DNA from: a virus
Virus record (IMG/VR): IMGVR_UViG_3300020471_000082
Coordinates: 1-27,399 of that record
Length of the DNA stretch: 27,399 bases
Reading direction: 5' to 3' (one strand)
Shown here piece by piece: positions 15,301-23,963 of this stretch. How positions within the stretch are numbered: position 1 is the first letter of the stretch; the number at the start of each line of letters is the position of its first letter. Under the pieces are notes generated by a model. The model made no database searches, was not told the DNA's origin, and saw nothing but the letters and a program-made list of their open reading frames with translations. Both the position numbers and the translations under genes were made by a program.

Positions 15301-15665
15301 ATAGAGATTATTCAAAATTATCATTAACACAAAAATTACTTAATGGATTTGATAGATCTGGATTAGGTGGAATTTATACAGATATAAATAAAGCTATAGA
15401 AACATTATCAAATAACAATATTGGAATTTCTCCTATGTTAGGAGAATCTAAACCATACGGATCATCAATGAGATGGAAAGCAGGAACAATAGGTGGAGCT
15501 ACTGGAGGACAGCTTTACAATATTGCTGACATTTTATTTGATGTATTTGGAAATAAATATAATCACCACACAGCAAAGAATGTGCGTAGATTGATACCAC
15601 TTCAGAATATATGGTATCTGGACTGGTTGTTTGACGACATACAAAAAGGACTAAGATTTAAATAA
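12342..15665 (+). CDS. Large internal virion protein (T7 gp16-like position)
   Basis: 1,107 residues (T7 gp16 is 1,318). It is the third ejectosome gene by position and probably forms the inner-membrane end of the ejection channel. Hydrophobic segments appear around residues 165-180 (DDIVPWIAAGGYVIPMAL), 715-735 (YNTLTMLTGFMAAAPDIARV) and 955-975 (DFLFGAMLLLGSGMVIDAIY). The C-terminal 400 residues, with LAQFKKFAMGAQQRMLMRG and an end rich in aromatic residues, resemble C-terminal regions of large podovirus internal proteins. I find no N-terminal lytic transglycosylase domain such as T7 gp16 carries. The stop overlaps the fibre start (TAATG). Function rests on synteny. Confidence 0.78.
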   Translation: MGTFYTQQKPMDWETREKRAMEAQKTLKFQPFRDTWDGISDENLFVMGGEYLYDEIMDKKNFVDDENYNYKTDPQLIGMESIQDKFMFSKSAQETKWLLDEMNHNATIQKESPYYFLGRIIGAVTDPSTYVAWKAKAARSSIAFGSMLTAEELIKQNIDPHRADDIVPWIAAGGYVIPMALNKFTSDIPAKVVDDVVELDKTYNKTAVPKITTKLDETGQTKIYEDGILVDANKIDSPPSSVGSQGIKSNNIANTPKKRMEGEEFVKTHLKWFGEDGPWTPVFRVVKSSSLTAKKMMGDILDTPLLKIKNTKAQNWTASTGSIETKMKIMKVDELEAHMAVRNKYLEYIARVQGENAKPKTQIGLHLHNRMTPNYLTLNEFSQEVAKARILKKHDVPEVYESSRIYGDKVYDKLWKEIDELGIREMPVVKELKLWEETLKKMRIKQEKTVDFYEPSSKTRVQYTINEIQSNIDELKKLHDRIKSGSKVDNYINRIYLKNNIDANKAGFRQIIIDNNRRLGITMNKKALDDLIEDLSNYFPFQRFEKTPWKKWLEEWEAYGKGGVKGLDEFLAHKRFIFNKDRYARSLRARTLNLDAKAQIEMIEQGFIMGDIFGLAKAYSRQMIPDILLTRKFGDPNGKGYKYISEAESMTDAGLLSVANEYALKLVGKKGKERIALIKERDQVLSDLEAAIELVRGTFGLPKDPHAWYSTAMRTMKHYNTLTMLTGFMAAAPDIARVVMTSGVKRGFRTQFELLGNFLADGNLFKLGKAEGRAAGEAWDLITGQRAMLMGDIGDMFGVANKIERGMGQLAHLNFMYVNMMSRWTEFAKALASVTIGSRILEDSIKWSKGGQLADKWKTALASSGIDQQMAKRIAKQFEEHGTKAKYNFMANTASWTDDGARAAFREALNKDINIAIVTPGLGDTPKWMSYELGSVLAQFKKFAMGAQQRMLMRGMQEKDGDFLFGAMLLLGSGMVIDAIYHKTRFNRDYSKLSLTQKLLNGFDRSGLGGIYTDINKAIETLSNNNIGISPMLGESKPYGSSMRWKAGTIGGATGGQLYNIADILFDVFGNKYNHHTAKNVRRLIPLQNIWYLDWLFDDIQKGLRFK
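15581..15589 (+). promoter_or_regulatory. Near match to the TGTGCGTTG motif (TGTGCGTAG)
   Basis: Matches the motif at 8 of 9 positions. It lies within the end of the ejectosome gene, 76 nt before the first fibre gene. Its reading frame relative to the host gene differs from the exact genic copies, so it does not encode Cys-Ala-Leu. It is weak on its own and is listed because its placement before a module repeats the pattern. Confidence 0.2.
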
Positions 15666-18070
15666 TGGCTATTACTATTTCTGATACAGAACCTCGAGTT
15701 CAATATACAGCAACATCAGGACAGACAAGTTTTTCTGTTCCTTTTGAATTTTTCACAGTAAACGATATTAAAGTTTACAACGGTACTTCATTGTTATCAT
15801 ACAATGCTTCACCATCATCAGCTTCACAATATTCGGTAACTGGAGCAGGTGTTTCAGGTGGAGGATCAATTACATTAGGTGGGGGTGCCACTCTTAATGA
15901 TAAGATTACAATTTTTAGAGATTTAGCAATATCAAGATCTACTGACTTTCCTACTTCAGGAGCTTTTCAAATATCTTCATTAAATGATGAATTAGATAAA
16001 ATTATAGCTATGTGTCAACAGCTTGAAAGAGATTTAAAATTCTCTCCAAGAGCTGCATCAACAACTGCTTCAACTTATAATCTTACTTTTCCTGAATTAG
16101 CTGCAAATAAAATTTTATCAGTTAATTCTGGTGGTACAGCTTTAGAATTTTCACAAGATATTACAAATGTAAATACTATTGCGGCAATAGCAACAGATGT
16201 AAGTACAGTTTCTGGTATTGCAGCAAATGTAACTTCAGTTGCAGGAAATGCAACAAACATAAATACAGTAGCTAGTAATATTACATCCGTTAATACGGTA
16301 GCAGCAGATATTACTAAAGTAGTTGCTGTTGCAAATGATTTAGCTGAAACAGTTTCTGAAATTGAAACAGTAGCAGATGATTTAAATGAAACAACTTCTG
16401 AAATAGATACAGTAGCAGCTAATGTTGCTAATGTTAATTCAGTAGGTAATGATATAGCTAATGTCAATACGGTAGCAGGAGCTATATCTAATGTTAACTC
16501 AGTAGCTGGTAATGCAACAAATATTAATGCTGTTGCTGGAAACGCAACAAATATAAACGCTGTTAATTCAAATTCAACAAATATAAATACAGTAGCAGGA
16601 GATGCTTCTGATATAAATACTTTAGCAGCTATATCTTCAGATATTACAACACTAGCTGGAACAACTGGATTAACAACATTAGCAAACAATGCTTCAAATA
16701 TAACAATTGTAGCAAACAATAATACTAATCTTTCACTTGTTGGAAATGATATTGCAAATGTTAATACAGTTGCTACAAATATTAGTGGCGTTAATAGTTT
16801 TGGTGAAAGATATAGAGTTGCATCTTCAGCACCAACTTCTTCAACAGATGTAGGTGACTTATATTTTGACACTACTGCTAATGAATTAAAAGTTTACAAA
16901 ACTTCTGGTTGGGCAGCAGCAGGTTCAACAGTTAATGGAACTTCTCAAAGATATACATATAATATTACAGGTGCAGTTTCTAATGTAACTGGTGCAGATG
17001 CAAACGGAAATACTCTCGCTTATGATGCAGGGTACGCTGATGTTTATGTTAATGGTGTTCGTATGTCAGCAGCTGATATTACAATTACTTCTGGTACTTC
17101 AGTAGTATTTGCTTCACCTTTATCTAATGGTGATGTTGTAGATATAGTTGCTTATGGAACATTTGATGTAGCTTCTATTAACGCAGCTAATATAGATTCA
17201 GGAACTTTAAACATTGCAAGAATTGCAGATCTTGGAATAACAACTGCTAAATTAAATACAGGTGCAGTAACAGGAGATAAAATTGGTGCTGATGCTGTTA
17301 ATGGAGATAAAATTGCAGATGATAGTATTAATAGTGAACATGTAGCAGATGGTTCAATAGATAATATTCATTTAGCAGGTTCTATTGCAAATAATAAATT
17401 ATCTAATTCAAGTATTACAATTAACGGATCAGCAGTATCATTAGGTGGTTCAGTTACAGTAGGTGAAACTAAACCTACTATAACAAGTTTAACACCAAGT
17501 GTTATTACTAATGATCCTTCCAATGTAGTTATTGCAGGAGCAAACTTCCAAGCAATACCTAGAGTACACGCAATTAATACTTCAACAGGAATATGGTATG
17601 AAGCAAGTACAGTTACTTATACTTCTGCTTCATCAATAACAGCAAACTTTACATTAACTGTTGATTCAGCAAATTACAGAATTAGAGTTGAAAACCCAGA
17701 TGGTAACGCAGTTATATCTGGAGCTAGTGCATTAAATGTAAGTGATGCACCTGCTTGGACAACAGCAGCTGGATCTCTTGGATCAGTAGCAGGTGATTTT
17801 AATGGAACAATAACAACAGTAGCAGCCACAGGAGATACAGTTACTTTTACAGAAGTATCTTCTCCTTTAGTTTTAACAAATGCTTCTCAAGCAAACTGTG
17901 CGTTGTCTACAGCTGGAGTAATTACTACAAGTGATTTTGGTGGTTCAAGTACAACAGCAACTTTATATACTTTTACTATCCGAGCAACAGATGCACAAGG
18001 ACAAACAAGTGACAGAGTATTTACATTACAATCATCATTTGGTTCAACAGGTGGAGGACAATTTAACTAA
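15665..18070 (+). CDS. Tail fibre with T7 gp17-like N-terminus and decapeptide repeats
   Basis: 801 residues. Residues 1-130 (ISDTEPRVQYTATSGQTSFSVPFEFF...LNDKITIFRDLAISRSTDFPTSG...LNDELDKIIAMCQQLERDL) are the T7 tail-fibre N-terminal domain, which attaches the fibre to the tail. Residues about 166-377 are about 20 ten-residue repeats of the type xINTVAGNAT. Residues 380-420 form a short VGDLYFDTTANELKVYKTSGW motif common in phage fibres, and 505-590 contain short repeats such as DKIGADAVNGDKIADDSI. A TIG/IPT-like domain (about 602-692) and a cadherin/Ig-like domain (about 695-795) end the protein. It should be the trimeric anchor fibre. The last two domains recur in the protein at 20872. Confidence 0.9.
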   Translation: MAITISDTEPRVQYTATSGQTSFSVPFEFFTVNDIKVYNGTSLLSYNASPSSASQYSVTGAGVSGGGSITLGGGATLNDKITIFRDLAISRSTDFPTSGAFQISSLNDELDKIIAMCQQLERDLKFSPRAASTTASTYNLTFPELAANKILSVNSGGTALEFSQDITNVNTIAAIATDVSTVSGIAANVTSVAGNATNINTVASNITSVNTVAADITKVVAVANDLAETVSEIETVADDLNETTSEIDTVAANVANVNSVGNDIANVNTVAGAISNVNSVAGNATNINAVAGNATNINAVNSNSTNINTVAGDASDINTLAAISSDITTLAGTTGLTTLANNASNITIVANNNTNLSLVGNDIANVNTVATNISGVNSFGERYRVASSAPTSSTDVGDLYFDTTANELKVYKTSGWAAAGSTVNGTSQRYTYNITGAVSNVTGADANGNTLAYDAGYADVYVNGVRMSAADITITSGTSVVFASPLSNGDVVDIVAYGTFDVASINAANIDSGTLNIARIADLGITTAKLNTGAVTGDKIGADAVNGDKIADDSINSEHVADGSIDNIHLAGSIANNKLSNSSITINGSAVSLGGSVTVGETKPTITSLTPSVITNDPSNVVIAGANFQAIPRVHAINTSTGIWYEASTVTYTSASSITANFTLTVDSANYRIRVENPDGNAVISGASALNVSDAPAWTTAAGSLGSVAGDFNGTITTVAATGDTVTFTEVSSPLVLTNASQANCALSTAGVITTSDFGGSSTTATLYTFTIRATDAQGQTSDRVFTLQSSFGSTGGGQFN
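16160..16795 (+). repeat. In-frame 30-bp/10-residue repeat array in the fibre gene
   Basis: About 20 imperfect tandem units encode a ten-residue pattern like INTVAGNATN, VNSVAGNATN and INAVAGNATN, with a departure from register around residues 225-250 (TVSEIETVADDLNETTSEIDTV). A hydrophobic residue recurs every few positions, consistent with a fibrous trimeric shaft (beta-helix or coiled coil). The DNA period is 30 bp, so recombination could change shaft length. The array also keeps the opposite strand open for about 265 codons, which explains the antisense ORF there. Confidence 0.85.
17897..17905 (+). promoter_or_regulatory. TGTGCGTTG motif, copy 3 (candidate promoter element)
   Basis: An exact copy inside the fibre gene's last domain, where it encodes Cys-Ala-Leu. 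It lies 165 nt before the LamG/SPRY fibre gene. AGCTGGA follows after 5 nt, exactly as at 1107. Codons TGT-GCG-TTG are unusual here, since Ala is mostly GCT/GCA and Leu mostly TTA. Confidence 0.35.
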
Positions 18071-19431
18071 TGGCTAGTACATCACTACAAAGAACTTTTG
18101 GATCAGAAGGTAATAGAAAAAAATGGACTTGGAGTGCGTGGATAAAAAGAAGTGCAACAGGTTCTGCAACTGCTTCTAACGGCTACACACTTTGGAACTG
18201 CGAAGGCAATAATGCAAATGATAATTTCATTTTTCAAATAACTATAAATGGGGGAGGCTCAGGCGGAACTACTGATAGTTTGGCTTTGCATACTTACGGC
18301 AATGACGTATTTAGAACAACTAGAAAACTGGCAGATACGAACGGCTGGTATCATATAGTTTTTGCTTTAGATACAACTCAAGCCACTGCGACTGACAGAA
18401 TAAAACTGTATGTTAATGGGGATCAACTTACTTATTCTCAAGAAACTAATTTTCCTACTCAAAATTATAATATGGGAATTAATAGAGCAGCTTTACATTG
18501 TATAGGAAGTCACGGATCTAATGCTAATTATTATTTTGACGGTTTAATGAGCCATATTCATTTTTGCGATGGTTATCAATATGCTGCATCAGACTTTGGC
18601 GAAACAAATAGCGTCACTGGTGAGTGGACTATAAAAACTTCACCAAGCGTTTCTTATGGAACTAATGGTTTCTTTATTTTAAAAGATGGCAACTCAGGAA
18701 CAGACCAATCTCCTAACTCTAATGATTTTACTGCGGCTGCTGGTTCACTTACAAAATCTGAAGATTGTCCAAACAATATTTTTTGCACGTTTAATCCACT
18801 TTATAAATCGCTACCTACTGGTGGTTTATTCAACGGAAATACAACAGCAAAAACTGGTAATGGTGACAGCACTTGGCGAAGTGCTTTTGGAACTTTAGCA
18901 GCTAATTCAGGAAAATATTATATGGAGGTAAAATGGTCAGCTGGTTCACATTTTGCAATTGGATTTGCTAGTACAAAAGTTTTACAAATGAAAGACGTAA
19001 AAGATTTAACAGATAATAGTTATTCAGGTGGAGGATATTATTACGCCCAGTATGGTACGAATTTTTATTCTCAAGGCTCAGCAGCTAGCGGTTATACTAG
19101 TTATTCTGCAGGTGACATACTTGGATTAGCTTTAGATTTAGATAATAACAAAATGTATGTAAGCATTAATGGAACTTTTCAAGGTAGCGACAATCCTGCA
19201 ACAAACACTGGTGGAGTTTCTATCGGTGGTGACTTAGACAGTTTTTGGACATTTGGTATTTCTGTTTATAGTAATTCAGGAGTTGGTACTTATGACGCTA
19301 ACTTCGGTAATGGCTATTTTGGAACAACGGCAGTATCAAGTGCAGGAACTAACGCAAGTAATAATGGGATCTTTGAGTACAATGTTCCAAGCGGCTTCAC
19401 GGCATTATCAACTAAAGGATTAAATTTATAG
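18070..19431 (+). CDS. Fibre/adhesin with LamG-like and SPRY-like domains
   Basis: 453 residues. Residues 1-185 look like a concanavalin-type LamG domain: SLQRTF..EGNRKKWTWSAWIKRS at the start, NGWYHIVFALDT...RIKLYVNGD in the middle and NYYFDGLMSHIHFCDGYQY at the end, all typical of marine phage LamG proteins. Residues about 255-430 look like a SPRY/B30.2 domain (GKYYMEVKW, FAIGFAS, YSAGDILGLALDLDNNKMYVSINGTF). Both folds bind carbohydrates or proteins, so host recognition is likely. It has no tail-attachment domain of its own and overlaps the previous stop (TAATG), suggesting it assembles with the anchor fibre. Confidence 0.85.
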   Translation: MASTSLQRTFGSEGNRKKWTWSAWIKRSATGSATASNGYTLWNCEGNNANDNFIFQITINGGGSGGTTDSLALHTYGNDVFRTTRKLADTNGWYHIVFALDTTQATATDRIKLYVNGDQLTYSQETNFPTQNYNMGINRAALHCIGSHGSNANYYFDGLMSHIHFCDGYQYAASDFGETNSVTGEWTIKTSPSVSYGTNGFFILKDGNSGTDQSPNSNDFTAAAGSLTKSEDCPNNIFCTFNPLYKSLPTGGLFNGNTTAKTGNGDSTWRSAFGTLAANSGKYYMEVKWSAGSHFAIGFASTKVLQMKDVKDLTDNSYSGGGYYYAQYGTNFYSQGSAASGYTSYSAGDILGLALDLDNNKMYVSINGTFQGSDNPATNTGGVSIGGDLDSFWTFGISVYSNSGVGTYDANFGNGYFGTTAVSSAGTNASNNGIFEYNVPSGFTALSTKGLNL

Positions 19432-19439
19432 TAGGAATT

Positions 19440-20870
19440 ATGGCTTACACAGCAATAGATAAACACACATCATTTTTTAATACTAAACTTTATACAGGAA
19501 CAAATGCAATACAAAATGTTACTGGTGTCGGTCATCAGCCAGACCTTGTCTGGATAAAAGATAGAAGTGGTACAAATTCTGGTAGTCATAATCATAATTT
19601 AATAGACTCAGTAAGAGGTGCACCAAAAATAATTATGACAGATAATAGTGGTGCTGAAATAACAGATAGTACAGATGCATTAACAGCTTTTGCTTCAGAT
19701 GGATTTACATTAGGTGCTAATAATACAGGAACACAATCACAAGAATTAAATGGTCATACTAATGGTGGAAATGAATATGTATCATGGAACTGGAAAGCAG
19801 GAGGCACAGCACCATCACAAACTTATGTTGTTAAAGTAGTTTCAGATAGTGGTAACAAATATAGATTTGATGATTTTGGTACGAGTGCTGTTACATTAGA
19901 TTTGCAAGAAGGTGGTACTTATACTTTTGACCAAGCAGATAGTTCTAACTCTGGTCATCCATTAAGATTTTATACAGCAGCAGATAAAACTGGTGGAGAA
20001 TATACAACAGGAGTTACAACAAATGGAACACCAGGAAGTTCTGGTGCTTATACTAGAATAACAGTAGCAGGTTCTGCACCAACATTATATTATCAATGTT
20101 CTGCACACGCATCAATGGGTGGTCAAGTAAATACAAACTCAACATTTGGTTCATCTAATTTTAGTGGTAGCATACAATCAACTGTTTCTGTTAATATCAC
20201 ATCAGGTTTTTCAATTTCAAAATATACTGGCACTGGTTCAGCAGCAACAATAGGACACGGACTAGGTGCAGTTCCTCAAATGATATGGGTAAAAAGATTA
20301 GATAGTGGTAATAACTGGACAGTTTATCATCACAGACACGGTAATAACAAAGGTCTTTATTTAGATACAAATGGAACTGGTGATACTAGCTCAGCGTTTT
20401 GGAATGACACTACTCCAACATCAACTGTCATTTCGTTAGGTAATGGAGCTTCAGTAAATGCTAGTGGTGGAACTTACCTTTGTTACAGTTTCGTGTCTAA
20501 AACTGGTTTTAGTGAAATCGGTGAATACATAGGAAATGGAAATGCTGATGGAACATTTGTTTACACAGGATTTAAACCAGCTTGGTTGATGATTAGACGA
20601 ACAGATGCAAATGAACATTGGCATATTTTTGATGTAAAAAGAAATCCAACTTATCCAACAAGTACGAGCTATGACGGTATGGCTACAAGATTGATGGCAG
20701 ATCTTACTAGTGGTACTGACTTATCTCAAGGTGGTTTTAGATTTTTAAGTAATGGATTAAAAATGACTACAAGTTGGACAGGTGGAAATAATAGTGGTAG
20801 CTCATTTATTTATATGGCTATTGGACAATCATTAGTAGGAACAAACAAAGTACCATGTACAGCGAGGTAA
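19440..20870 (+). CDS. Fibre-associated protein (DUF7483-like) with inserted cupredoxin-like domain
   Basis: 476 residues; AGGA at 19433 precedes ATG 19440. Residues 1-122 (GVGHQPDLVWIKDRSGTNSGSHNHNLIDSVRG...FASDGFTLG...YVSWNWKAGG) and 250-476 (KYTGTGSAATIGHGLGAVPQMIWVKRL...YTGFKPAWLMIRRTD) belong to a marine-phage tail domain type annotated DUF7483. Between them, residues about 127-232 resemble a cupredoxin: VTLDLQEGGTYTFD strands, His173 in SGHPLRF, and a C-terminal YYQCSAHASMGG supplying Cys220, His223 and Met226, the type 1 copper ligand order. Copper binding is not proven. A purely structural beta-sandwich is the alternative. The role is probably receptor binding or fibre-tip stability. 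Confidence 0.8.
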   Translation: MAYTAIDKHTSFFNTKLYTGTNAIQNVTGVGHQPDLVWIKDRSGTNSGSHNHNLIDSVRGAPKIIMTDNSGAEITDSTDALTAFASDGFTLGANNTGTQSQELNGHTNGGNEYVSWNWKAGGTAPSQTYVVKVVSDSGNKYRFDDFGTSAVTLDLQEGGTYTFDQADSSNSGHPLRFYTAADKTGGEYTTGVTTNGTPGSSGAYTRITVAGSAPTLYYQCSAHASMGGQVNTNSTFGSSNFSGSIQSTVSVNITSGFSISKYTGTGSAATIGHGLGAVPQMIWVKRLDSGNNWTVYHHRHGNNKGLYLDTNGTGDTSSAFWNDTTPTSTVISLGNGASVNASGGTYLCYSFVSKTGFSEIGEYIGNGNADGTFVYTGFKPAWLMIRRTDANEHWHIFDVKRNPTYPTSTSYDGMATRLMADLTSGTDLSQGGFRFLSNGLKMTTSWTGGNNSGSSFIYMAIGQSLVGTNKVPCTAR

Positions 20871-20871
20871 T

Positions 20872-22719
20872 ATGACAAAAGCACGAGATTTAAGTAAAAT
20901 AGCAGGAAGTATAACAAACAATAAAATACCTTCAGCAAAATTAGATGTTTCATTTGAAAATATAAATGACACAGGTACAGAAGGTACTAAAGTATCTGTA
21001 GGTTCTACTGGTCAAAGAGGAACAACTACAGGACAATTAAGATATAATTCAACAACAAATAATTTTGAATTTAGAGATAATACTGGAACAACAGATTTTT
21101 TATCTCCTCCTCAATTAACTTCTGTTGATGTGAACGATGTTCAAACAGATTTAGGTGGTAACGAAACTTTTGTTATTACAGGTAAAAATTTTAAAACAGG
21201 AGCTGTAATTAAATTTATAGCTAATGATGCTAGTGAAGTAACAGCAACAACAACAACGAGAAATAGTGCTACTCAAATAACAGCTGTAATAGCAAGATCA
21301 CAATTTACTAATGCTAAAGAACCATATGATATTCATATTACAAATGGTGATGCTTTAACTGCTGTTTTAGCTGATGTTGTCAATGTAGATAATAATCCTG
21401 TATGGCAAACAAATGCTACCCTCCCTATCATATACAATAACATGTCACAAAATATTCAGTTATCTTGTACTGATAGTGATGGAGATACAGTAACTTATGC
21501 AATAACTTCTGGTTCATTACCAACTGGATTATCAATGAATAGTTCTGGATTAATTACAGGAACATCTCCTAATGTTGGTAGTTCAACTTCATATAATTTT
21601 ACAGTTAGAGCAACAGCAAATTCAAAAACAGCAGACAGAGCTTTTACTCAAACTGTTAATCCAAATACTGCTCCAACTTGGAATACAGCAGCAGGTTCTC
21701 TTGGTACTCTTTACGATAGTGGTAGAGCAGCATCAGGAGTAACAGCGTTATCAGCAAGTGATGCACAAGGTCAATCAATTACTTACGCTGTAACTTCTGG
21801 TTCTATTCCTGGAGGATTAACTTTAAATAATGACGGTACTTGGTCAGGAACAGCTACTGCTGTTGGTTCAGATACAACTTCTACATTTGAAGTAACACCA
21901 ACTGATAGTGCTAGTGCAGCAGGTTCAGCAAGACAATTTACTATTCTAGTTAAGGCTCCTACATTACAAACATTCTCAACTTACGGAACAGGAACATGGA
22001 CAGCTCCTGTAACTGGAAATATTAAAGCAGTAGTTATAGGTGCAGCTGGAGGAAGTGGACACAACGGAGGAAAAGGTGGAGGTGGTGGTATAGTTTACCA
22101 TGCATCTTATGCTGTTGTTAAAGATACAGTTTACAATTACACAGTTGGTGAAAGTGGAGCAGCTTGGCATACTAGAACAGGTGGTGGATCATCTGTTGGA
22201 AAAAATGGTGGCTCATCTAAATTTGGAATATCTGGAAATTCAGCAGAACTAATTGCATTAGGTGGTGGTGGTGGACAACACTCAAATGGTTCTCAAGAAA
22301 AATCAGCTGGAGCTGCTAACGAAGGATCTTATATGGGTACTGTAGGTTCGCAAGTACAAGGATGTTACAGACCAACTGCATCTCTTGGAACACAACAAGG
22401 TGTAGGTGCAACAATCTATGGAGGATATAGATGTGGAACTTCAAACATGCAACACTATGCTTGGGATCTTGCAGGATCAGCAGGAGCTGGTGGTAATGGT
22501 AATTCAGTATCAAGATGTGGTGGAAATGCAAACGGAGGAGCTGGTGTTGATTTCTCAAGTCTTGATTCTGATATTGCTGCTTTAGGTCATAATAGTTGTT
22601 TTGCTGCTGGTTGGCATGCAGGAGGTTGGTATAGTGGAACAACTGGAACAAAACAAAATGGATTCGATGCGTATGGTGGAGGAGGAACACAAACAGGAGC
22701 AGTTATCCTTAAATATTAA
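20872..22719 (+). CDS. Fibre protein with TIG, two Ig-like domains and polyglycine tip
   Basis: 615 residues. Residues 1-75 hold a short fibre segment (SKIAGSITNNKI and GQLRYNSTTNNFEFRDNTGTTDF). Residues about 79-172 are TIG/IPT-like (TSVDVNDVQTDLGGNETFVITGKNF). Residues 176-262 and 267-360 are two putative Ig/cadherin-like domains, each with a T-Y-A-I/V-T-S-G-S-L/I-P-x-G-L core. Residues 365-615 are glycine-rich with runs of 4-5 Gly and several Cys, and end in GAVILKY. Polyglycine domains form the receptor-binding tips of adhesins such as gp38-type proteins. It lacks a T7-type attachment domain. The stop and start of its neighbours overlap its glycine region. Confidence 0.85.
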   Translation: MTKARDLSKIAGSITNNKIPSAKLDVSFENINDTGTEGTKVSVGSTGQRGTTTGQLRYNSTTNNFEFRDNTGTTDFLSPPQLTSVDVNDVQTDLGGNETFVITGKNFKTGAVIKFIANDASEVTATTTTRNSATQITAVIARSQFTNAKEPYDIHITNGDALTAVLADVVNVDNNPVWQTNATLPIIYNNMSQNIQLSCTDSDGDTVTYAITSGSLPTGLSMNSSGLITGTSPNVGSSTSYNFTVRATANSKTADRAFTQTVNPNTAPTWNTAAGSLGTLYDSGRAASGVTALSASDAQGQSITYAVTSGSIPGGLTLNNDGTWSGTATAVGSDTTSTFEVTPTDSASAAGSARQFTILVKAPTLQTFSTYGTGTWTAPVTGNIKAVVIGAAGGSGHNGGKGGGGGIVYHASYAVVKDTVYNYTVGESGAAWHTRTGGGSSVGKNGGSSKFGISGNSAELIALGGGGGQHSNGSQEKSAGAANEGSYMGTVGSQVQGCYRPTASLGTQQGVGATIYGGYRCGTSNMQHYAWDLAGSAGAGGNGNSVSRCGGNANGGAGVDFSSLDSDIAALGHNSCFAAGWHAGGWYSGTTGTKQNGFDAYGGGGTQTGAVILKY

Positions 22720-22903
22720 GGAATTAGAAAACTCTCCTCATCCTGAAACTTCTTTATCAAAAGAAAGATATTTAATTTGTCAAAAATGTGATAGGTTTAA
22801 TAACACCTTTAAATTATGTAAAGAGTGTAATTGTTTTATGCCATTAAAAGTAAGAATACCAAAATCACTTCACGACATTAAATGTCCGATAGGTAAGTGG
22901 TGA
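22634..22903 (+). CDS. Zinc-ribbon small protein (DUF6171-like), start uncertain
   Basis: The conserved part begins around 22770 and reads ICQKCDRFNNTFKLCKECNC, then FMPLKVRIP and a final KCPIGKW. The two C-x2-C pairs ten residues apart and the CPIGKW end match short zinc-ribbon proteins common in marine phages (DUF6171 type). The start is unclear. The frame is open from ATG 22601 inside the fibre gene, with further in-frame ATGs at 22616, 22658, 22667 and 22673. GTG 22634 is chosen for AGGAGG at 22620-22625, but GGAGG is common there because of Gly codons. The role is unknown, possibly RNA or protein binding. It overlaps the next gene by 4-7 nt. Confidence 0.7.
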   Translation: MEQLEQNKMDSMRMVEEEHKQEQLSLNIKELENSPHPETSLSKERYLICQKCDRFNNTFKLCKECNCFMPLKVRIPKSLHDIKCPIGKW

Positions 22904-23484
22904 TTAAATTATATTTTCCTACAGCTATATTTTATAAAGATAAAATTTTTGATGAATTAGAATTAGATTTACTTAAAGAGAAATCAAATAACATTTTAAA
23001 TAAAATAAAAGAAAATAAATCTAATTGGTACTCTCAACTTAAAAATACTTTTAATCAATATAATCTAGTTGACGATCCTCATTTTGAAGTTTTATTAAAA
23101 GTCATTAATGAATATGTAACTTCTTTTAATCATGCACATGGATCTAAATTAGTTTATAACAAACCTTATTCTGCTTGGTTAAATCTTTATAACGAAGGTG
23201 ACTATCAAGAATTTCACAATCATGCTTCTCATAGGTATTCAGCTATATTTATTATAGAAGGAGAAAAGAATATAGATAAAGCAACACCAATTTGTTTTAA
23301 CAATCCCTATCAAGATATGCTACCACCAAATGGTGTAGAAGGATTAAATGAATTAACCTTTCAACAATATTCTTTTAATGCTTTAGAAAATAGTCTTATT
23401 ATATTTAGAAGTCATTTACAGCATTGTGTACAAAAACATATAGGCAAAAAGCAAAGAATAAGTTTAGCACTTAATTATAATTAA
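22897..23484 (+). CDS. Putative 2OG-Fe(II) oxygenase (2OG-FeII_Oxy_5 type)
   Basis: 195 residues from GTG 22897; a second GTG at 22900 overlaps the previous stop as GTGA and may be the true start. It reads YFPTAIFYKD at the N-terminus, WLNLYNEGDYQEFHNHASHRYSAIFII in the middle (His107, His109) and SLIIFRSHLQHCVQKHIGKKQRISLALN near the end (distal His176, Arg187). This is the layout of a phage-rich family of putative 2-oxoglutarate/iron oxygenases, which hydroxylate protein or nucleotide substrates. The substrate is unknown. Since the gene follows the fibres, hydroxylation of a virion or host protein is possible but speculative. The metal-binding set appears intact. Confidence 0.82.
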   Translation: MVIKLYFPTAIFYKDKIFDELELDLLKEKSNNILNKIKENKSNWYSQLKNTFNQYNLVDDPHFEVLLKVINEYVTSFNHAHGSKLVYNKPYSAWLNLYNEGDYQEFHNHASHRYSAIFIIEGEKNIDKATPICFNNPYQDMLPPNGVEGLNELTFQQYSFNALENSLIIFRSHLQHCVQKHIGKKQRISLALNYN

Positions 23485-23963
23485 TGAAAATTATTAAAAA
23501 TTTTTTACCAGATCCATTGTTTAAAACAATTAAGACAATGACAATGGAAAGTGATTTTCCATATTATTATATGGCATCAACAGCAGATCCAAATGATGAT
23601 AGTTACTTTTTCTTTTGTCATTTACTATACAAAGACAAACAAACATTAAGCGATCATTTAATGCCTATTGTTTATCCAATAATGGCAAAGGTAGAACATC
23701 AAGAATTACTAAGAGGTAAAGTTAATTTATATACCAAGACTCCTAAACCTATAACTACAGGATTTCATATAGATGGAGATTTTCAACACAAAGTATTACT
23801 TTATTCAGTTAATACTAATAATGGATATACTTTATTCGAAGATGGTAAGAAAGTACATTCGGTAGCTAATCAAGCTGTTATATTTGATGGTCATATAAAA
23901 CATTCCTCAGTAACACAAACTGATGAGAAAATTCGAGTAAATATTAATATTAATTTTAGATAA
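23484..23963 (+). CDS. Putative 2OG-Fe(II) oxygenase, second type (prolyl-4-hydroxylase-like)
   Basis: 159 residues, start overlapping the previous stop (TAATG). The C-terminal half is a compact double-stranded beta-helix: TTGFHIDGDFQHKVLLYSVN gives His95-x-Asp97, NGYTLFEDGKKVHSVANQAVIFDGHIKHSS gives the distal His140, and KIRVNININF gives Arg151 for 2-oxoglutarate. This full H-x-D...H...R set differs from the HxH pattern in the upstream neighbour, so they are not recent duplicates. Similar small oxygenases occur in T4-like and marine phages, with substrates unknown. The gene ends one base before the motif at 23965. Confidence 0.85.
   Translation: MKIIKNFLPDPLFKTIKTMTMESDFPYYYMASTADPNDDSYFFFCHLLYKDKQTLSDHLMPIVYPIMAKVEHQELLRGKVNLYTKTPKPITTGFHIDGDFQHKVLLYSVNTNNGYTLFEDGKKVHSVANQAVIFDGHIKHSSVTQTDEKIRVNININFR

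Follow-up and report, generated by a model that had tools for sequence, protein, structure and literature searches.

Cupredoxins are known as electron carriers or as domains of enzymes. The copper ligands of amicyanin are His53, Cys92, His95 and Met98, with an Asn following the first His (PMC12723479), and the C-terminal type 1 site of the nitrite reductase TsNirK includes Cys428, His431 and Met434 (PMC6400189). Metal sites have also been described in phage fibres, namely the iron-binding HxH sites of T4 gp37 and of alterophage R22Y (PMC11705849).

The locus considered here lies in a window of 27,399 nucleotides, by which we mean the whole stretch of DNA that was analysed, and the underlying record is a 27.4-kb virus contig. 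With a probability of roughly 80%, residues 127-232 of a 476-aa fibre-region protein of the DUF7483 family constitute a true cupredoxin domain that has been grafted into this protein and forms an amicyanin-like metal site of type 1. The insert has in common with amicyanin the ligand set, the Cys-x2-His-x2-Met spacing and, in the predicted model, the fold, and the same spacing is found at the C-terminal type 1 site of TsNirK. The original prediction had placed a beta-rich insert at residues about 127-232, with His173 and Cys220-x2-His223-x2-Met226, and both the coordinates and the residues proved exact.

The DUF7483 protein and its genomic surroundings

The window belongs to a T7-like marine podovirus and covers its structural and lysis genes. 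Its gene order begins with a head-tail adaptor/portal protein, a T7 capsid-assembly protein, the major capsid protein and tail tube proteins, continues with internal virion proteins, a tail fibre and fibre-region proteins of 453, 476 and 615 aa, and ends with a 2OG-Fe(II) oxygenase, a phosphoesterase and an M15 peptidase. Pelagibacter phage EXVC031P Hodr is the closest isolate when portal (58%) and capsid (61%) are compared, which makes a SAR11 host plausible for the window phage. The features relevant to the insert, all on the plus strand, are as follows.

15665..18070, +, upstream tail fibre protein, given for context (phrog_21412, 22284 and 1640)
18070..19431, +, 453-aa fibre-region protein with a SPRY-like part, given for context (phrog_27411 and 19943; SPRY just below cut-off)
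19440..20870, +, DUF7483 fibre-region protein bearing the insert (uninterrupted ATG-start ORF, 476 aa)
19440..19817, +, N-terminal DUF7483 part, residues 1-126 (aligns directly with insert-free DUF7483 proteins up to the joint)
19818..20135, +, residues 127-232, predicted cupredoxin domain that interrupts DUF7483 at its joint (AlphaFold2, Foldseek and profile matches)
20136..20867, +, C-terminal DUF7483 part, residues 233-476 (PF24299 stretch 235-461)
20872..22719, +, 615-aa protein, given for context, that combines two Ig-like repeats (He_PIG, E 4.6e-19) with a glycine-rich end (Gly_rich_2, below cut-off)

Pfam recognises PF24299 (DUF7483) on the 476-aa protein with E 3e-97 and a score of 326 bits, against a gathering score of 27, in two stretches that flank the insert and lie above the cut-off on either side of it, and calls no family inside the insert. 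The PHROG relatives of the protein are annotated as virion structural or tail fiber proteins, and the insert by itself matches PHROG families of tail proteins, one of which is the cyanophage 'baseplate wedge tail fiber protein connector'. We infer that the protein occupies the fibre region of the virion. Residues 11-122, 249-352 and 353-470 of the DUF7483 protein resemble three weakly similar repeats, with 28-34% identity over 62-81 residues, and the insert lies between the first and the second. Elsewhere in the window, the 2OG-Fe(II) oxygenase and an adjoining ORF matching phrog_274 (labelled DNA endonuclease V) occupy positions 22897-23484 and 23484-23963; the endonuclease V label may be doubtful, since the oxygenase ORF weakly matches the same family. 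An antisense open frame of 265 aa (16075-16872, minus strand) within the tail fibre gene is probably a shadow ORF.

Predicted fold and conservation of the ligand set

Modelling of the insert by AlphaFold2 with 18 close relatives gave pLDDT 86 and pTM 0.81, and Foldseek matched this model to rusticyanin and to an azurin with its loop altered to CAAHAAM, which has the spacing of the insert. With alignment A2, comprising 84 divergent relatives and restricted to intact domains, these values were 93.7 and 0.87, and among the Foldseek matches listed against the PDB, 50 of 50 had the cupredoxin fold, including nitrite reductase, rusticyanin, laccases, plastocyanin, amicyanin, AcoP and a relative of factor V, whose A domains have this fold. 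The top structural matches were rusticyanin and three-domain nitrite reductases (2dv6, 6hbe). The matches are weak but uniform (best E 1.3e-3, TM-scores about 0.55-0.59), and the fold call leans on the uniformity of the list and the quality of the model because no single Foldseek match is strong. In the predicted topology, the first His lies ahead of a strand, the Cys closes a strand, and the next loop holds both the second His and the Met, a placement of the four ligands relative to strands and loop that is the same as in plastocyanin. The modelling thus bears out the earlier suggestion of a cupredoxin-like domain: the insert is predicted to form a Greek-key beta-sandwich of the cupredoxin type, with its ligands at the canonical topological places. 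The four residues correspond to domain positions H47, C94, H97 and M100, and the ligand loop reads CSAHASM (Cys-x2-His-x2-Met).

19956..19958, +, His173, predicted ligand 1, before a strand and followed by Pro174 (invariant in alignment A1; aligned with plastocyanin His37)
20097..20099, +, Cys220, predicted thiolate ligand at a strand end (invariant in A1)
20106..20108, +, His223, predicted ligand 2, in the loop (invariant in A1)
20115..20117, +, Met226, predicted axial ligand (invariant in A1)

In A2 the ligands are invariant by construction, as that alignment was limited to intact domains. Selection for the ligand motif was to be avoided, and loci were therefore collected with two DNA patterns, FDQ[ST]Dx[ST]N and NKY[FY]IDG, neither of which contains the ligands. 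All four ligands were present in 217 of the 239 domain hits obtained in this ligand-blind manner, truncated ones being scored as misses (114/133 for the FDQSD pattern and 103/106 for the NKYFIDG pattern, several of the others being merely truncated), and the ligands ranked among the most conserved positions in these sets. Across all sets, 322 of 342 distinct complete domains retained the four ligands, 17 had lost two to four and three had lost one. Expressed as raw counts over distinct domains, uncorrected for relatedness, single losses numbered 3 against 51 expected under independence, and multiple losses 17 against 3.5 expected. The degenerate copies behind these counts come from several different proteins, and the second His was gone in all 15 of the 15 domains that lacked the Cys (Fisher p 2.4e-24; relatedness uncorrected).

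Two of the three single ligand losses were Met-to-Gln replacements, and Gln is the axial ligand in stellacyanin and at one TsNirK site (PMC6400189). These variants occur at loci L214 (ORF L214_+_1, residues 15-138) and L247 (ORF L247_-_1, residues 163-289). Exactly one Cys was found in 341 of 345 intact domains, which rules out an internal disulfide as the cause of Cys conservation. In 193 of 211 intact domains, the residue directly after the first His is a Pro. Among close relatives, only one position varies more than residue 222, which lies in the stretch between the invariant Cys and His. Degenerate domain copies that have lost several ligands (L156, L120, L104, L106, L127 and L121) often lie beside an intact copy in the same protein. 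Their sequences are still recognisable, and the fold therefore appears to be kept without metal in a minority of cases.

Random loss of single ligands was looked for among the homologues and proved rare; the ligands appear to be inherited and lost as a set. This joint retention and loss across divergent relatives supports, at the level of sequence, selection for metal binding beyond the mere borrowing of a scaffold, as had originally been proposed from the intact ligand set of the window domain.

Kinship with blue copper proteins and distribution of the module

A single-sequence search of the PDB with the insert returned no match, hits in that database being obtained with profiles only. Starting at E 0.006, the A2 profile retrieved nitrite reductases, pseudoazurin, plastocyanins and rusticyanins, the remaining listed matches being mainly antibodies, and in its alignments with plastocyanins each of the four ligands, in the order His, Cys, His and Met, was paired with its counterpart. 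Profile-profile comparison of the insert with plastocyanins gave identical ligand pairing at P 0.0023, with a low probability (12.7%). No Pfam or NCBIfam cupredoxin model scored above its cut-off for the window domain: TIGR02657 (amicyanin) gave no match to it and matched 2 of the 84 relatives at E 0.02 or weaker, TIGR02656 (plastocyanin) gave no match to it and reached E 0.0017 with the best relative, and DUF7308 reached E 3.6e-4 on the domain, below its cut-off. An Ig-like origin of the insert was rejected, comparison of its profile with the neighbouring He_PIG repeats yielding P 0.69 (from two template sequences only).

A sister subfamily, gathered in alignment A5, consists of the C-termini of cyanomyovirus gp9 and related proteins. 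Its profile reached amicyanin at E 9.5e-6, and blue copper proteins made up nearly all of the 60 matches listed, one of them being a cytochrome oxidase CuA chimera. The gp9 subfamily is found by tblastn with the window domain (S-SSM5 gp9, E 4e-7), and the resulting chain from the window domain through the gp9 domain to amicyanin therefore supports common descent. In sequence, the gp9 C-terminal domain is nearer to amicyanin than the window domain is.

The module is graftable: DUF7483 proteins share one joint whether or not they have the insert, and the majority of carriers lie outside the DUF7483 family. When the C-terminal DUF7483 part was used to select loci by similarity, the insert was absent from 85 of 90 ORFs, in which residue ~126 runs straight on to ~237, and the other 5 carry a cupredoxin at that joint; pattern and genome searches found no DUF7483 flanks in most domain-bearing proteins. 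One phage (locus L005) encodes two DUF7483 paralogues, a 353-aa and a 485-aa ORF, one without and one with the cupredoxin insert. The domain is better conserved than its flanks: in loci ranked on the domain, identity to the window was 82% in the domain vs 46/44% in the flanks, a contrast inflated by ranking on domain similarity, and the five carriers selected by their flanks show the same tendency, with 62-87% in the insert and 38-54% in the flanks. Fourfold-degenerate sites were only slightly more alike in the domain (0.50) than in the flanks (0.42/0.40), which speaks against explaining the high identity of the domain chiefly by a recent transfer of DNA and points mainly to purifying selection at the protein level.

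Among the named carriers are tail fibres from two Pelagibacter phages, Baldr and Mosig, and from methylophage Melnitz, as well as fibre-like proteins of P-SSM2 and virion proteins of S-TIM5. Many of the hosts are photosynthetic, and non-photosynthetic SAR11 and OM43 are also represented. Structural matches of the domain in BFVD include further fibre and baseplate proteins, and gp9-type proteins with a related domain occur in 349 phage records, nearly all of cyanophages and including well-studied isolates. Judged by sequence, hundreds of cyanophages and some pelagiphages thus carry the module in their tail proteins. The gp9 of T4-like cyanophages (baseplate wedge tail fibre connector) has a C-terminal cupredoxin with the four ligands, e.g. 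at L082:2083-3309, and all four ligands are present in 16 of the 16 gp9-type domains listed. In S-SSM5 gp9, the N-terminus is related to T4 gp9/gp10 and the cupredoxin lies at the C-terminal end. In S-CREM2, for which virion proteomics has been published (PMC10665884), no such domain was found in the searched 50-kb fibre/baseplate stretch. Intact copies also occur in proteins of 1500-2800 aa (L120, L104, L106, L098, L118, L126 and L109), the contigs of which are filed as SAR86, Flavobacteriaceae, Bacteroidetes, Prochlorococcus, Euryarchaeota and Dehalococcoidia and may be cellular or proviral.

Possible roles of the metal site and comparison with known systems

The predicted site of His173, Cys220, His223 and Met226 most likely binds one copper ion. 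Copper, one per domain, would be acquired outside the cytoplasm, after assembly or lysis, and may act as a staple that locks the compact beta-sandwich at an exposed place in the fibre or baseplate, while the copper-edge loop around His223 would serve as a contact surface. Given metal binding, this combination of staple and contact surface, rather than an electron carrier, is put forward tentatively, at somewhat below even odds. A metal-stapled structural or binding module is the most likely role overall, and redox or copper-receptor roles are possible.

The recognisable sequences of ligand-less relatives could also be accommodated by a cupredoxin-derived scaffold without a working metal site, serving as an Ig-like spacer or adhesive in which the ligands persist through descent or because they help packing; phage tails often contain Ig-like sandwiches, and the neighbouring 615-aa protein has two of them. 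Such a scaffold is nevertheless improbable, as packing offers no reason for an invariant unpaired Cys plus two His and a Met, the ligands are top-conserved in the ligand-blind sets and lost as a group, and Gln replaces Met in both single Met losses. Another metal might occupy the site as a plain structural ion, zinc being one candidate. Cupredoxin Cys/His sites can take up zinc in vitro, and the second sphere, with its Pro after the first His, is unlike that of classic cupredoxins; however, retention of the Met with the other ligands and its substitution by Gln follow the type 1 copper pattern and are unusual for structural zinc, which leaves this reading only a small chance.

To our knowledge, every cupredoxin characterised so far uses its type 1 site for redox chemistry, which favours a redox-active or copper-sensing module whose copper would switch state at the surface of the host or in seawater exposed to light, and would thereby gate adsorption, or would pass electrons. 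The photosynthetic hosts of many carrier phages and the variable residue 222 beside the ligand His, as expected for a docking surface, point the same way, but no electron-transfer partner domain or gene was found within the window and carriers also infect non-photosynthetic SAR11 and OM43, so that we regard this role as quite improbable. The iron Trojan (Ferrojan) horse idea, together with the iron in T4 gp37 and alterophage fibres (PMC11705849), suggests by analogy that the metal might be recognised by a copper-uptake receptor of the host. Such a lure seems highly improbable, since the module also occurs in baseplate gp9, beyond the fibre tips, and since type 1 metal is buried and would hardly be visible to a receptor. 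Even taken jointly, redox gating and a receptor lure appear unlikely. Returning to the copper-binding module, it is doubtful, although conceivable, that marine phage virions (gp9-bearing cyanomyoviruses and some pelagiphages) hold stoichiometric type 1 copper in their fibres or baseplates and that its state or occupancy controls adsorption or particle survival.

The cupredoxin family is well known, but the open-access literature searched appears to contain no account of it as an exchangeable module, with a conserved copper-type site, that is widespread among virions. In that literature no description of a cupredoxin module in phage tail proteins was found, nor any paper that pairs cupredoxin or plastocyanin-like with tail fiber or that names DUF7483, and the one paper found to mention both cupredoxin and cyanophage is the Borg paper. 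A cupredoxin as an exchangeable virion building block would represent a new use of the fold. As hundreds of ocean phages have relatives of the domain, their virions may carry copper; if they do and its state or occupancy governs adsorption or survival, virions would form a copper-binding pool in seawater and be copper-dependent in their infectivity, and copper would join a discussion of phage-carried metals that has so far been about iron. The presence of the gp9 domain in well-studied cyanophage isolates makes both copper content and the copper dependence of infection testable in laboratory phages.

Amicyanin is a free periplasmic electron carrier with an Asn after the first His, whereas the phage insert is a domain of a fibre-region protein with a Pro at that place; rusticyanin has a Ser there, and the phage domains mostly have Pro. 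Plastocyanin, including that encoded by cyanophage petE, matches the insert in its fold, ligand order and the 47 residues from the first His to the Cys, but its loop is Cys-x2-His-x4-Met, two residues longer than that of the insert, and it is a stand-alone photosynthetic carrier expressed in the host cell rather than part of a structural protein. Rusticyanin and the nitrite reductases are respiratory proteins or enzymes with defined redox partners, in contrast to the insert, for which none is known. The cyanophage gp9 domain, for which no description of metal binding was found in the literature searched, forms the C-terminal part of a baseplate protein, while the window domain is an insert in DUF7483, and both belong to the same wider family. 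Among phage structures, T4 gp37 and R22Y hold octahedral, His-only iron sites, whereas the insert has a predicted Cys/His/Met site within one domain, although both types of site would hold a metal in a phage fibre. The Ig-like domains of phage tails are exchangeable beta-sandwich modules like the insert, from which they differ in having no metal ligands.
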